Shown here piece after piece: positions 4,919 through 10,737 of a DNA stretch of 42,503 bases. The stretch is from a virus, in IMG/VR virus record IMGVR_UViG_3300025655_000077, positions 1 to 42,503 of that record, one strand, 5' to 3'. The position numbers and the translations under genes were made by a program. Within the stretch, counting starts at the first letter, position 1, and each line of letters opens with the position of its first letter. The notes under the pieces are model-generated. The model worked only from the letters and a program-made list of their open reading frames with translations. It made no database searches and was not told the origin of the DNA.

Positions 4919-5074
4919 ATGGATGATGAGTATAAGAAAAAAAGAGACGCTTGGATAAAAGAGCAGTATTTGAATGAGCCGATAAAACCAAGCGGCATGG
5001 GTGGAAACTGGTCTTATAGATTGAGAAAAGAACGAGAGTATGATAAACTCATGGAGCAAAAATGCCAAGATTAG
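4919..5074 (+). CDS. small basic hypothetical protein (51 residues)
   Basis: ATG at 4919 opens a 51-codon frame to TAG at 5072-5074. It begins MDDEYKKKRDAWIKEQYL, continues KPSGMGGNWSYRLRKEREY and ends QKCQD. It fills the otherwise empty gap between cargo 3 and the nucleotidyltransferase and overlaps the latter by 13 bases. The composition is helical and charged. It carries no targeting sequence. Function is unknown. Confidence 0.55.
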   Translation: MDDEYKKKRDAWIKEQYLNEPIKPSGMGGNWSYRLRKEREYDKLMEQKCQD

Positions 5075-5493
5075 TTCTCATTACAGGTGGATTTGATCCT
5101 GTTCACTCGGGTCACATAGAATATATCAATGCGGCCAAGGAACTCGGAGATTATCTGTTTGTTGGGCTAAACTCTGATGATTGGCTTACTCACAAGAAGG
5201 GTAAGCCTTTCATGCCTTGGACTGAACGTCATATGATACTATCAAACTTAAGAAGCGTAGACGATGTATTTGCTTTCGATGACTCTGATAACACTGCTAT
5301 TGACGCTATCCGTCGTATTCGTGAAGAGAACCCAGACCAAACAATTATCTTTGCAAACGGTGGAGATAGAACGAAAGAGAACATCCCAGAGATGGAATGC
5401 GGAATAGATGATGTTGAGTTTGTGTTTGGTATTGGTGGGCAAGACAAGAAGAATAGTTCTAGCTGGATACTAAAGAAATGGAACGAGACATGA
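5062..5493 (+). CDS. cytidylyltransferase-like nucleotidyltransferase
   Basis: The protein has 143 residues with the HxGH-type signature GGFDPVHSGH at residues 9-18, followed by IEYINAAKELGDYLFVGLNSDDW. This is the classic opening of the RfaE-C/TagD group that transfers CMP or AMP onto a sugar or alcohol phosphate. The C-terminal SSSWILKKW corresponds to the second, Ser-rich nucleotide-binding motif. The substrate is not deducible; activated glycerol or heptose for envelope or DNA modification are options. It is embedded among cargo genes, and its stop overlaps the next ATG. Confidence 0.85.
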   Translation: MPRLVLITGGFDPVHSGHIEYINAAKELGDYLFVGLNSDDWLTHKKGKPFMPWTERHMILSNLRSVDDVFAFDDSDNTAIDAIRRIREENPDQTIIFANGGDRTKENIPEMECGIDDVEFVFGIGGQDKKNSSSWILKKWNET

Positions 5494-6784: not shown

Positions 6785-7414
6785 ATGAAACGTTATGTGA
6801 TTGGTGATGTGCATGGTTGCTATGATGAACTGTGCTTGCTCTTAGATAAGATATATGATCATGCTGATGATGATCTTTGTAAGATGATCTTTGTTGGTGA
6901 CTATGTTGATCGCGGCCCAAAATCCAAAGAAGTTGTTGATCAAGTCATGCGAATGAAGAAGAATGGTCATGTGACTCTTATGGGCAATCATGAAGATATG
7001 TTACTTGATGGTGATTTCACTTATGCTGAGGCCACACTTCGCAGTTTCAACAGCCCACTCATGGAACTGCCTGATTATGTAACAGATTGGATGCGAACTC
7101 TGCCGAAGTATTATGAAGATGACACGATCATCGTTGCACATGCTGGTGCAAACCCTGCATTTCCAATGAGTGAACAAAGGGATCAAATACTATTGTGGAT
7201 GCGATATGAAGAATATCATCACGCACAGATGGGTAAGCACTTCTATCATGGTCATACACCACGATTAGGTAAGATCGAACAAATAGATGATCGCACAAAT
7301 GTTGATACCGCCTGTGTGTATGGCGGGCATCTAACAGCCGCTATTGTAGGAGATGATGGTAAACCTGAAGGTTTCATTCAGGTGCCAGCACGAAACAGTG
7401 CGTATAACTTTTAG
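6785..7414 (+). CDS. PPP-family serine/threonine phosphatase (lambda-phosphatase-like)
   Basis: The protein has 209 residues with all three metallophosphatase signatures: GDVHG (7-11), GDYVDRG (38-44) and GNHED (67-71). Later metal-binding His candidates lie in HAGANP and in YHGHTP. Length and motifs match phage lambda protein phosphatase and bacterial PrpA/PrpB. It removes phosphate from Ser/Thr (and sometimes His or Tyr) of proteins, or hydrolyses small phosphoesters. In a phage it could reset host phosphosignalling. The start follows the previous stop by a base or two, so it is probably translated by coupling. It is directly upstream of the tmRNA gene. Confidence 0.9.
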   Translation: MKRYVIGDVHGCYDELCLLLDKIYDHADDDLCKMIFVGDYVDRGPKSKEVVDQVMRMKKNGHVTLMGNHEDMLLDGDFTYAEATLRSFNSPLMELPDYVTDWMRTLPKYYEDDTIIVAHAGANPAFPMSEQRDQILLWMRYEEYHHAQMGKHFYHGHTPRLGKIEQIDDRTNVDTACVYGGHLTAAIVGDDGKPEGFIQVPARNSAYNF

Positions 7415-7440
7415 GAGTTATATATACTGTAGTTATCGGT

Positions 7441-7760
7441 GAAGGAAAACGAAAAACACTGAGGACCGGGGGGCAGTACCCCGCGCCTCCACCAAAGGCA
7501 CTCCGCCACTTAATACATATATACGGAGATAGGCCAGGCAATCCTTCCGTGGGTCAGGCAACGGTTCGAAACGTTGTTGAGGAGTGTCTTTGATGGGGGC
7601 GAACTAGGATCGACTGAGTGTAGAATAGTTGACTGGAGATAACCGTAGGCGACTACGTACAAGCGCAAAACTCTAAATGCAAACGATAACTTTGCACCTC
7701 GTTTGGCACTAGCTGCCTAACATGCGCTCGGAGGGGGCGTGGAAACAGAACCCCTCCACC
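7441..7760 (+). ncRNA. ssrA: circularly permuted two-piece tmRNA (ssrA)
   Basis: The acceptor piece comes first. It has a T-arm CGGGG-GGCAGTA-CCCCG (7467-7483), acceptor strand CGCCTCC (7484-7490), discriminator A and encoded CCA (7492-7494). A 100-base intervening segment follows. The coding piece then begins with GGGGGCG (7595-7601), which pairs with the acceptor strand over 7 bp and places a G-U at the third pair, the alanine identity element. The tag frame starts at GCA (7679) and reads ANDNFAPRLALAA with stop TAA (7718-7720). AGTGT (7616-7620 region) can pair with ACACT (7456-7460) as helix P2. Acceptor-before-coding order is the alphaproteobacterial design. Outer 5' and 3' ends are approximate. 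Confidence 0.93.
7494..7594 (+). other. intervening segment of the tmRNA precursor, removed on maturation
   Basis: The ends of this segment are complementary over 11 bp (7494-7504 with 7581-7591, one G-U). This extends the acceptor stem into a helix of about 20 bp with one mismatch, a natural target for RNase P/E-type processing. Inside are two hairpins: ACGGA with TCCGT, and CAACG-GTTCGAAA-CGTTG, whose loop resembles a tRNA T-loop but is eight bases long. Confidence 0.75.
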
Positions 7761-7788: not shown

Positions 7789-8043
7789 ATGTCAAAGAAC
7801 CCTTACGAAATCCGTCTTGAACTTCTTCAAATTGCGCGAGATTTTATCATTGAGCAAAATATGAACGAACGTATTCGTCTTGAAAATGATTGGAACCTTG
7901 AAAGAGAAAAGGCTTCTATTGCTCTTTCAAACGGTGACAAGAACGCAATTCTTCCGCCTTTCCCTTCAGTACCAAACATGGATGCAGAAGCTATCATCAA
8001 GTTGGCCGAAAAGCTTAACGGATTCGTATCCAAGAACGAATAA
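7789..8043 (+). CDS. small conserved T4-like phage protein
   Basis: The protein has 84 residues and begins MSKNPYEIRLELLQIARDFI. It is helical, with a linker NAILPPFPSVPNMDAEAIIK and a C-terminal helix KLAEKLNGFVSKNE. I recall similar NPYEIRLE... proteins as conserved but uncharacterised in T4-like phages of marine and soil bacteria. AGGAG lies eight bases before the ATG. It separates the tmRNA from the membrane operon. Confidence 0.65.
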   Translation: MSKNPYEIRLELLQIARDFIIEQNMNERIRLENDWNLEREKASIALSNGDKNAILPPFPSVPNMDAEAIIKLAEKLNGFVSKNE

Positions 8044-8046
8044 ATA
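8039..8046 (+). promoter_or_regulatory. T4-type late promoter box (AATAAATA) of the membrane operon
   Basis: AATAAATA differs from the T4 late box TATAAATA only at the first base and overlaps the stop of the preceding gene. The start site would be near 8052, leaving a 26-base leader that contains GCGAGG before the ATG at 8078. It implies that the channel/protease operon is expressed late. Confidence 0.55.
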
Positions 8047-8077: not shown

Positions 8078-8536
8078 ATGAAGTCAATTAAGCCGTTCTA
8101 TATCTGGTGGGTCACAAATCTGTTTGTTGCGTCTGGCGTTTTCTGGGCATGGCATAATGGCATCATTGCTAAAATTTGGCATGATGATGTGACAATGATC
8201 ACATCTCTCCTCGCTATTCTTTACGTTGTAACCACATTAATGATTGGTTACATTGCATATCTGAAAGACTTTACTAACAAGATGGTTGATGCTTGTTGGT
8301 TTCTTTCCGAACAGATGCTTGCTCTAGGTATGTTGGGCACTGTAATCGGCTTCATCTATCTTCTCACTTCAGGTATTACATCTGCTTCTGTTACTGATCC
8401 AGCAAGTCTAGCTGCACTATTAGCTAATATGTCTGTTGGTTTAGGCATTGCACTTTACACCAATGCCACAGGCATTCTGTCCAGTTTGATAACAAAGGCG
8501 CTGCTATATGCGGTAACATATGATCATGAAGAATAA
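8078..8536 (+). CDS. MotA/TolQ/ExbB-like ion channel subunit
   Basis: The protein has 152 residues and four predicted membrane spans (about 7-25, 39-61, 80-100, 112-146). The third and fourth carry the family pattern: LGMLGTVIGF (83-92) and LANMSVGLGIALYTNATGIL, matching the core pore helices of TolQ, ExbB and MotA. The large cytoplasmic domain of ExbB/MotA is missing, so this is a minimal pore. In cellular homologues a pentamer surrounds two copies of an ExbD/TolR/MotB partner and uses proton or sodium flow to drive motion. Such a partner is encoded next, with a 17-base overlap. It is probably inner-membrane and late-expressed. Confidence 0.8.
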   Translation: MKSIKPFYIWWVTNLFVASGVFWAWHNGIIAKIWHDDVTMITSLLAILYVVTTLMIGYIAYLKDFTNKMVDACWFLSEQMLALGMLGTVIGFIYLLTSGITSASVTDPASLAALLANMSVGLGIALYTNATGILSSLITKALLYAVTYDHEE

Positions 8537-9173
8537 AAAGTTTGATTTTCGTACTGCATACATTGATATTCTGATCGCTCTATTGATGGGTACAGTTGTT
8601 ATCTTTATGTTGACAACTCTACTCATTGCACCTATTGTACAACAGAACGAAGGCATTAGAAAAAATGCAGACTATGTGATCACAATGGAATGGCCAGTAG
8701 GTGTTGACTGTGATCTTGACTTGTGGGTTCGTGATCCACAAAACAATGTCGTATCATATCGCTTTATGGAAGCAGGGCTGATGTACTTTGAACGCGACGA
8801 TATGGGAAAGCGTAGAAGTGTATATCAGCTTGACAATAAAGAAATCGTAATAGATCCTGACAACAAAGAATATGTCACATTCAGAGGAACATTTTCTGGT
8901 GAGTATATTGTGAATGTGCATGTTTATTCTTGTATTGAAACAGAAGGTACAGGATCAAAAGGCATGGGGCAAGGTTCTATGATAGATGTGCCTGTAACGA
9001 TTGAAGTTGTTAGAATCAATCCAAAATATATGGTTGTCAAAACAATAGAAATGAAAATGGACAGTGTGTGGCAAGAAAAAACAGCAACAAGATTTGTGAT
9101 GGACGATAAGAAAAACATTCTTCGTTATAAAGATGGTTTTGTATCAGTTAGAGTTGGAATAAAAGCACAATGA
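8520..9173 (+). CDS. ExbD/MotB-like single-span protein with YfaP-like periplasmic beta domain
   Basis: The protein has 217 residues. A cytoplasmic stub (KNKKFDFRTAYID) leads into one membrane helix at about 16-38. Asp16 lies at the start of this helix, where ExbD, TolR and MotB have their essential ion-carrying Asp. From about residue 50 there is a beta-sandwich-like region with VGVDCDLDLWVRDP (60-73) and GEYIVNVHVYS. This resembles the DUF2135/YfaP type of extracytoplasmic domain and replaces the peptidoglycan-binding OmpA-like domain of MotB. Gene order after an ExbB-like channel supports the assignment. It overlaps both neighbours. Confidence 0.72.
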   Translation: MIMKNKKFDFRTAYIDILIALLMGTVVIFMLTTLLIAPIVQQNEGIRKNADYVITMEWPVGVDCDLDLWVRDPQNNVVSYRFMEAGLMYFERDDMGKRRSVYQLDNKEIVIDPDNKEYVTFRGTFSGEYIVNVHVYSCIETEGTGSKGMGQGSMIDVPVTIEVVRINPKYMVVKTIEMKMDSVWQEKTATRFVMDDKKNILRYKDGFVSVRVGIKAQ

Positions 9174-9757
9174 CACAAACAATTCTTCTTCTCATAGCAT
9201 TGTTCACAGCACTAGTCATCGCAGCAGCGTTTTACTGGAACAGCAGAACGATAAGAGTTCTAGTCATTGCTTTGATTGTGTTTCTAGCCAACGCTGTTTA
9301 TTTTTCGCTTGATGGTGTAAAAGGATGGCCAGCAGAAGAGAAGAGAGAAGTAAAAGGCATTCTAGCTTCTGTTGTTATAGTCAATCCATCTGATTTTGAT
9401 CCTGGTGCAATCTATATCAGTCTGTATCCCACAATACCTAAGAAGTGGTATGAGTATGTTTATCCAAGAGTTGCACCAAAAACATACTATGTGAAATACT
9501 CTAATGATAGAGCAGCATCCTTTGATAAAGCAAAACAAGCTATTGAAGAGGGACGCGAAGTTCGCATAAATGGTATACCACCAGAAAATGGTGGAGAAGG
9601 AGAGGGCGGTAATGATGAGGGGGAAGAATCGTCTGGTGTATTAGGGCAACTCCTTGAGAGATTGTTGCCTAAAGCTGGCGATACATACAAGCCAACCATT
9701 CCTGATATTGAGATATCTGAACAAATAGTTCCACCAGAGAAAGGAACAAATCAATGA
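9170..9757 (+). CDS. two-span membrane protein of the channel/protease operon
   Basis: The protein has 195 residues. Hydrophobic segments at 3-22 and 27-46 form a hairpin, so both ends face the same side. A folded part with DFDPGAIYISLYP and WYEYVYPRVAPKTYYVKYS follows. Next come a Gly/Glu-rich linker (137-156) and a Pro-rich tail (KPTIPDIEISEQIVPPEK). No family is recognised. Four-base overlaps on both sides tie it to the ExbD-like and HtrA-like genes, so it is likely a part of one complex. Confidence 0.65.
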   Translation: MTQTILLLIALFTALVIAAAFYWNSRTIRVLVIALIVFLANAVYFSLDGVKGWPAEEKREVKGILASVVIVNPSDFDPGAIYISLYPTIPKKWYEYVYPRVAPKTYYVKYSNDRAASFDKAKQAIEEGREVRINGIPPENGGEGEGGNDEGEESSGVLGQLLERLLPKAGDTYKPTIPDIEISEQIVPPEKGTNQ

Positions 9758-10737
9758 AGAAACTTTTAGCAGTGAGTGTTTTAGCACTTGCATTAGTGGG
9801 CTGTAACGAAAAGTCTGCTAAGGAAGTTTATAATGAGACTGTGAATGGTGTTGTTCTTATTCAAAATAAAATCGACGCAACATCTGGAGGAAGCGGCACA
9901 GGCTTCATTCTTGAAGACAATCAAATCGTTACGAATCATCATGTCATTGCTGGTCAGGGGCAAATCAAGGTCTTTTCAAGCAAGTCTGGAAAAGAATATG
10001 AAGCAAAAGTAGTCTACGCTGATCCCATATCTGACATTGCTGTGATTAGATTGAGCGATTGGGAAATGTTTGAAGCAACCGAAAACCCTGTTAATCTATC
10101 ACTGGGCAATAGCAATATGACAAAGCCTGGTGATAGAGTTATAGTCATTGGTCATCCTTGGGGTTTGACATGGACAATATCTGAGGGTATAATATCAGGT
10201 AAGCATCGTCGTGCTGGACCTAATCCAAAGTTCATGGATCAAGTAGATGCAAACTTATTCCAGGGCAACTCAGGTGGTCCCATCTTTGATGTAAATGGTA
10301 GAGTTGTTTGCGTTAGTACAATGATGCTTGCTTTGGAAGGCGGATCATATGGATTTTGCGTTCCTTCTAATCTTGTCAAAAAGGTTCTAAATGATTTTAA
10401 CGCTCTTGGTAAAGTTCATTGGAAAGTTATAAACGTATCAGCAGACTTGACAGATGACGGACAATCTGTTATAGTAAGAGAACTAGAGCCAGATGGAGCA
10501 GCAGCAAAGGCAGGAATACAGCAAGGTGATGTTATTATTGGTATCACAACACCAAAGAACAAAGCCAATGTTAAGTTAGTATCAAATCCAAATGATCTGA
10601 TTACTGAACTTGCTATGCTGAATGGTGATCTGGAAGAAGTTACATTATTTATTGATAGAAAAGGTGAAAAGATGTTCGTGAATATAAAGACAAATCACAA
10701 ACTTTCTTCTGATTATACGCCTGACGCAGGCAAGTAA
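9754..10737 (+). CDS. HtrA/DegP-like serine protease, predicted lipoprotein with PDZ domain
   Basis: The protein has 327 residues. A lipoprotein signal peptide ends in the lipobox LVGC with Cys17. The trypsin-like domain carries the full triad: His63 in TNHHVIAG, Asp94 in SDIAVIRL and Ser173 in GNSGGP. It is followed by a single PDZ domain (about 225-315) with VRELEPDGAAAKAGIQQGDVIIGI. DegQ/DegS-like enzymes cleave misfolded or specific envelope proteins in the periplasm. Asn18 after the Cys gives no inner-membrane retention signal of the Asp+2 type. Two strong sigma70-like promoters are embedded in the gene. It closes the four-gene operon. Confidence 0.9.
   Translation: MKKLLAVSVLALALVGCNEKSAKEVYNETVNGVVLIQNKIDATSGGSGTGFILEDNQIVTNHHVIAGQGQIKVFSSKSGKEYEAKVVYADPISDIAVIRLSDWEMFEATENPVNLSLGNSNMTKPGDRVIVIGHPWGLTWTISEGIISGKHRRAGPNPKFMDQVDANLFQGNSGGPIFDVNGRVVCVSTMMLALEGGSYGFCVPSNLVKKVLNDFNALGKVHWKVINVSADLTDDGQSVIVRELEPDGAAAKAGIQQGDVIIGITTPKNKANVKLVSNPNDLITELAMLNGDLEEVTLFIDRKGEKMFVNIKTNHKLSSDYTPDAGK
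10165..10193 (+). promoter_or_regulatory. full-consensus sigma70 promoter inside the protease gene, TTGACA-17-TATAAT
   Basis: Both hexamers match consensus perfectly (10165-10170 and 10188-10193) at the optimal 17-base spacing. It points to gp33 and gp59, about 550 bases downstream. It would let replication and late-transcription genes be expressed before the late operon in which it is embedded. Confidence 0.55.
10447..10475 (+). promoter_or_regulatory. second internal promoter, TTGACA-17-TATAGT
   Basis: TTGACA (10447-10452) and TATAGT (10470-10475) are again 17 bases apart, 282 bases after the full-consensus promoter and 265 bases before gp33. It is in coding sequence, so the match could be partly chance. 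Confidence 0.4.

Follow-up and report, generated by a model that had tools for sequence, protein, structure and literature searches.

A conserved phage module encoding a putative minimal stator-type motor and, usually, an exported protease

Introduction

Ion-driven motors of the known 5:2 type power flagella, Ton/Tol transport, gliding, and one anti-phage defense. What might genes resembling such a motor do in a phage, next to a gene for an exported protease? We asked this of four overlapping genes, g1 to g4, in a 42.5-kb fragment of a T4-like phage (“the window,” meaning the whole stretch of DNA analyzed), which also encodes gp33-like and gp59-like proteins, PhoH, and baseplate and tail genes. 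A preliminary description of the sequence knew of no described phage system of this composition, and our literature searches agree: the superfamily is known, and the papers they reached contain no description of a tail-less, three-subunit version that belongs to phages and frequently comes with a protease. If our reading is true, the module would be a phage-owned branch of these motors, built from a tiny channel subunit (~130-155 aa), a partner with a different axle domain, and a constant third subunit, often with a protease as well.

Results

All four genes lie on the forward strand and overlap by 17, 4, and 4 bases, an arrangement that we confirmed from the preliminary description together with every motif claimed there (LGMLGTVIGF, GLGIALYTNATGIL, Asp16, VDCDLDLWVRDP, and His63/Asp94/Ser173). 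g1 (8078-8536) encodes a putative minimal four-span channel subunit of the MotA/TolQ/ExbB/ZorA type (152 aa), with the large cytoplasmic domain absent; g2 (8520-9173) a single-span partner of the ExbD/MotB type, in which Asp16 is invariant and the periplasmic part is an all-beta domain (217 aa); g3 (9170-9757) a protein with two spans and a C-terminal tail predicted to be periplasmic, the third member of the triad (195 aa); and g4 (9754-10737) an exported HtrA/trypsin-like serine protease that has a single PDZ domain and, in the window copy, the lipobox LVGC (327 aa). A late-promoter-like box, AATAAATA (8039-8046, same strand), stands 39 bases upstream of g1. Median dN/dS over ortholog pairs is 0.087 for g1, 0.10 for g2, 0.14 for g3, and 0.11 for g4; with values of ~0.09-0.14 in all four genes, their products appear to be functional proteins under purifying selection. 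The set is not a product of chance, as gene order is kept, dN/dS is low, and Asp16 and the protease triad residues are conserved.

Just 5′ of the module lies a permuted tmRNA of alphaproteobacterial type (7399-7760, forward strand; RF01849 103.5 bits, RF04321 120.4 bits) with the predicted tag ANDNFAPRLALAA, which points to an alphaproteobacterial host. Related contigs L014, L016, L042, L046, and L060 also carry a tmRNA, with tags that mostly differ. A NinI-like serine/threonine phosphatase or metallophosphoesterase is encoded a short distance 5′ of the module (6785-7414, forward strand), and some group E phages likewise have phosphatases of this kind in the vicinity of the module. The window further encodes a heptose-1-phosphate adenylyltransferase-like nucleotidyltransferase (5062-5493, forward strand; PHROG E-value 3e-29).

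Judged by profiles and predicted fold, g1 appears to be a remote but genuine channel subunit of the MotA/TolQ/ExbB family, with ZorA nearest. By itself the window protein scores 13.2 bits against PF01618, under the 22.9-bit Pfam cut-off, and a whole-genome PF01618 search of the window gave no match, so that its membership rests on profiles and relatives. PF01618 is matched by 14 of 18 family members (best E-value 4.6e-6), and its cut-off is passed by relatives L106 (24.7 bits) and the chromosomal L161 (35.7 bits). Against the PDB, the family profile found ZorA (8vvn, E-value 3e-5; 8qyy, 0.002; other ZorA entries, 0.002-0.02) and MotA (8gqy, 0.007; further MotA weaker), and all matches span two pore helices, the channel core; 8VVN and 8VVI are ZorAB structures (PMC11890865). 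PADLOC ZorA models matched p038 of phage 16-3 (7.5e-9), L106 (4.8e-9), and the window g1 (6e-4). With an AlphaFold (AF2) model of g1 (pLDDT 82), the top 50 Foldseek matches were mostly ZorA, TolQ, ExbB, MotA, and PomA, the best being ZorA at a probability of 0.96, with E-values all above 0.1. The initial assignment as a minimal MotA/ExbB-type channel is borne out by these profile, family-member PF01618, Foldseek, and PADLOC matches. In register alignments with ExbB and ExbD, whose E-values refer to four sequences only, the last two g1 helices align with ExbB 143-189, g1 T88 occupies the position of ExbB T148, and g2 Asp16 aligns with ExbD Asp25. The second polar site of the pore (ExbB Thr181) is Thr or Ser in most g1 members and Asn129 in the window, and each of the two pore helices carries a polar residue.

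The AF2 model of g2 (pLDDT 84) has one helix (10-41) followed by a beta domain. Asp16 sits near the cytoplasmic end of the helix, so that g2, like ExbD, TolR, MotB, and ZorB, has one N-terminal span that carries an Asp where it meets the cytoplasm; the helix starts with YxD, as in MotB. All 17 diverse homologues aligned, down to ~25% identity, keep Asp16, and in a 41-sequence alignment it is nearly invariant, one row ending short of it through start choice. The proposed ExbD-type partner with an invariant Asp is supported, while the YfaP-like domain once attached to it is a weak lead, DUF2135 E-values of 0.02-0.12 being below cut-off. Family searches found neither an ExbD-type nor an OmpA-like periplasmic domain: g2 gave no match above threshold to the ExbD (PF02472) and MotB families, and none to PADLOC ZorB models. 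The periplasmic domain instead bears the signature DxDLWVxDP ... RDDxG ... GxYxVN, which recalls DUF2135 and pre-peptidase C-terminal-like beta sandwiches through sub-threshold matches only. Its fold found nothing significant in the PDB; among viral models it has four remote matches (E < 1e-3, TM 0.40-0.46), and a match to a tellurium-resistance-like protein (E-value 3e-3) is a lead only.

A 664-680-aa protein of Vequintavirinae and Phaeobacter phage MD18 (L128:2735-4738, L129:2750-4792, L130:2780-4774) is named “serine protease” in one record, and a weak DUF2135-like stretch was all that we found in it. We considered this “serine protease” (667 aa) as a fusion of protease and beta domain and rejected it, as no protease domain was detected.

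g3 has two spans with a short, positively charged loop between them, and this charge places its long tail probably in the periplasm. It has no match to TonB or TolA, the third subunits that reach the outer membrane in Ton/Tol systems, and is a conserved two-span partner belonging to the triad.

g4 matches Trypsin_2 (6e-31) and PDZ (3e-5) in Pfam, and TIGR02037 with an E-value of 7e-52 and 176.8 bits, under the curated cut-off of 416.2 bits. It thus has the trypsin-like domain, His/Asp/Ser triad, and PDZ of HtrA/DegP, and across its family His63 and Ser173 never vary and Asp94 hardly does. It had been described as an HtrA-like lipoprotein: the intact triad, the PDZ, and the window lipobox stand, but the lipobox is absent from many close relatives and the PDZ, confined to some groups, from most of the wider family. 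As neither is consistently kept, the defining trait is “exported trypsin-like protease” rather than “lipoprotein with PDZ.”

The module is widespread in Alphaproteobacteria phages, temperate and T4-like alike, including the long-studied temperate phage 16-3 of Sinorhizobium meliloti, in which p036-p042 are mostly unnamed. IMG/VR holds 41 close relatives of g1 and 40 of g2, and all contigs of sufficient length keep g1-g2-g3-g4 in the window order. Of 50,697 named phage records, 27 contain a distant g2 homologue; all 27 are Rhizobium or Sinorhizobium phages, and the homologues stand in cassettes with matching membrane proteins. Profile comparison of the window type with the Rhizobium-phage type by hhalign (g1, 1e-12; g2, 1e-33; g3, 7e-6) indicates that all three are homologous across the two types. 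Further scans found the module in likely prophages of Ensifer, Shinella, Rhizobium, and Metarhizobium, in MAGs labelled Roseobacter and Ahrensia, and in many environmental viral contigs.

How firmly are the genes linked? Among 47 loci, sorted into 13 phage groups by our judgement, g1 and g2 are adjacent in all 47 and in every group, and outside the module genes no neighbor family spans more than 4 of the 13 groups. g3 comes next in nearly all groups, going undetected in one (L102/L103). The protease adjoins the triad in six groups. AF3, N34, and the L116 record encode it at a separate genome site, and searches of RHph_I1_18 and the L120 record did not detect it. The expected co-occurrence of four genes therefore holds for g1-g2-g3, which are never unlinked, but loosely for the protease.

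Bacterial chromosomes carry a sister form of the triad. Of 397 genomes from the order to which Rhizobium esperanzae belongs (Hyphomicrobiales), 44 have a g2 homologue, prophage copies counted. At most loci examined, g1, g2, and g3 share a strand, g1 is larger (235-300 aa), and the protease is absent alongside. These triads form one supported clade (13 rows, 95/84) apart from the phage sequences, in a tree whose rooting is not fixed. Separate standard ExbD/TolR genes are found in 8 of 8 triad-type genomes checked; together with the separate chromosomal triad, this argues that the phage module is not merely a captured tolQR. The chromosomal triads (L153-L159, L161-L164, L166, L184-L186) come from Hyphomicrobiales and other Pseudomonadota and represent an apparently unnamed stator system, in Hyphomicrobiales apparently also an unstudied one. 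A Sel1-repeat gene lies 5′ of some of them, and those of L154, L161, and L166 are near genes resembling PQQ/quinoprotein genes, mostly judged by eye.

When is the module made? All 19 close relatives compared have TAAATA ~25-40 bases 5′ of g1, and in the window the box also precedes three tail or structural genes (18320, 20220, 28565), there at -31 to -42. The proposed late-type box is upheld by this position, its conservation, and the structural-gene copies, but not by its count across the window, which is not enriched over chance. In many temperate relatives the module directly follows endolysin and Rz/Rz1-type genes; in phage 16-3 it comes after an endolysin gene, and in L069, L078, L090-L094, and L099 an Rz-like i-spanin and an overlapping o-spanin-like ORF lie beside it (PHROG check of the pair on L069, L078, and L094). 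Several T4-like relatives instead have the module amid genes for DNA metabolism. The TAAATA box and the place after the endolysin and Rz/Rz1 genes argue for late expression and an envelope job. The earlier suggestion that the module weakens the envelope for lysis needs narrowing, since an endolysin and Rz/Rz1-type pair stand just 5′ of it in many relatives, and we reject spanin substitution as a general rule.

Discussion

We favor, tentatively and at somewhat less than an even chance, the reading that g1 and g2 form an ion-driven motor of the 5:2 type that remodels the host envelope before lysis, beside endolysin and spanins. The two would make a compact inner-membrane motor of the MotAB/ExbBD/TolQR/ZorAB superfamily in which, by analogy, a g1 pentamer would enclose a g2 dimer and Asp16 would ferry H+ or Na+ between polar residues conserved in the final two helices of g1. 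The two periplasmic beta domains of g2 would be moved by this ion flow; g3 would adjoin g1-g2 in the membrane as a constant third subunit, and the exported trypsin/HtrA-like protease, usually added by the phage, would share the compartment of the beta domains, perhaps with a physical link. The module would be made late and be active while the cell is still energized, when it would loosen or remodel the envelope before lysis sets in, at surface proteins and at the links between outer membrane and peptidoglycan. Once a holin triggers, the ion gradient collapses and an ion-driven device would stop; we infer that the module acts before that point. This reading is favored by the homology, the late-type signals, the intact protease, the conserved linkage, and the invariance of Asp16. 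Several findings count against it: the window g1 is below the Pfam cut-off, g2 has no ExbD or MotB match above threshold and its beta domain no significant PDB match, the protease is absent or distant in several groups, and the neighbors of the module in several T4-like relatives serve DNA metabolism, not lysis. A chromosomal triad without a protease, outside phage loci, also means that the core job need not concern lysis.

The main rival, doubtful but worth taking seriously, is superinfection exclusion or lysogenic conversion, in which motor and protease would alter the envelope and block adsorption or injection by other phages. An envelope location fits this, as does presence in both temperate and T4-like phages; in temperate relatives, moreover, the module is flanked by the tail/lysis block on one side and the nucleotide-metabolism/att-int region on the other, where morons typically sit. 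However, known T4 exclusion genes are early, against the late-type box of the T4-like group, and the strong constraint on the parts would be unexpected of exclusion genes, which probably change fast as a rule. We think it unlikely that the g1-g2 motor uses ion flow, without ATP, to pull or unfold envelope proteins or to sense damage by rival phages, with the linked protease cleaving; if true, phages would have invented or adopted a Zorya-like motor whose effector is periplasmic. A phage counterpart of Zorya, with the motor sensing a second phage's envelope damage and a periplasmic protease replacing cytoplasmic nucleases, seems distinctly improbable. The lack of ZorA's long cytoplasmic tail would suit a periplasmic effector, and ZorA is nearest to g1 in PDB, Foldseek, and PADLOC; but g2 matches no ZorB model, the protease is not constant, a ZorC/D/E-like match is absent among the four products, and a close chromosomal relative of the triad has no protease.

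The g1 and g2 proteins could also act as a decoy or poison, co-assembling with and blocking subunits of host stators (Zorya, Tol, Ton, Mot), given a channel core homologous to these stators and the ExbD/TolR genes that sister-triad-type bacterial genomes have of their own. An inhibitor would not need all three genes, so that the matched g1-g2-g3 set in nearly every group speaks against a decoy, as do the invariant Asp and dN/dS of ~0.1, and we consider this very unlikely. The least probable reading is an auxiliary metabolic module powering outer-membrane uptake in the infected cell: the Ton system is the nearest functional precedent and a phage ExbB gene has been so interpreted (PMC11361711), but the module lacks a third subunit resembling TonB with its long periplasmic arm, and what recurs near it is a protease rather than any transporter family.

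A phage gene of the MotA/TolQ/ExbB family has a precedent in the lone “TonB-system energizer ExbB” gene of chronic phages of Lentisphaerae, a single annotated gene for which no g1-g2-g3-protease module is reported (PMC11361711). g4 shares with HtrA, DegP, and DegS a trypsin-like core, catalytic triad, and one PDZ, but it is shorter and under the curated TIGR02037 cut-off, and its module relatives often have no PDZ. Like MotA-MotB, the module has a channel subunit whose profile matches MotA chains; unlike it, g1 has no torque-interface domain and g2 no OmpA-like peptidoglycan-binding domain. The likeness to ExbB-ExbD and TolQ-TolR lies in the pore helices and in Asp16, matching ExbB 143-189 and ExbD Asp25; in contrast, g1 is shorter by ~90 residues, the periplasmic domains of g2 and ExbD share no sequence relationship, and the module has no TonB/TolA-like arm. 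Closest is the ZorA/ZorB motor (PDB 8VVN, 8VVI; PMC11890865), the best match of g1 in sequence and fold, whose single-span partner likewise has its counterpart encoded adjacent to g1. The pair is not the long-tailed ZorA with ZorB that defines Zorya, nor are ZorC, ZorD, or ZorE effectors among the four products scanned: g1 has no long cytoplasmic tail and covers the channel core of ZorA models only, and g2, with no ZorB model match, has a DxDLWV-type beta domain. To this core the module adds g3 and, usually, a protease, and it is carried by phages.
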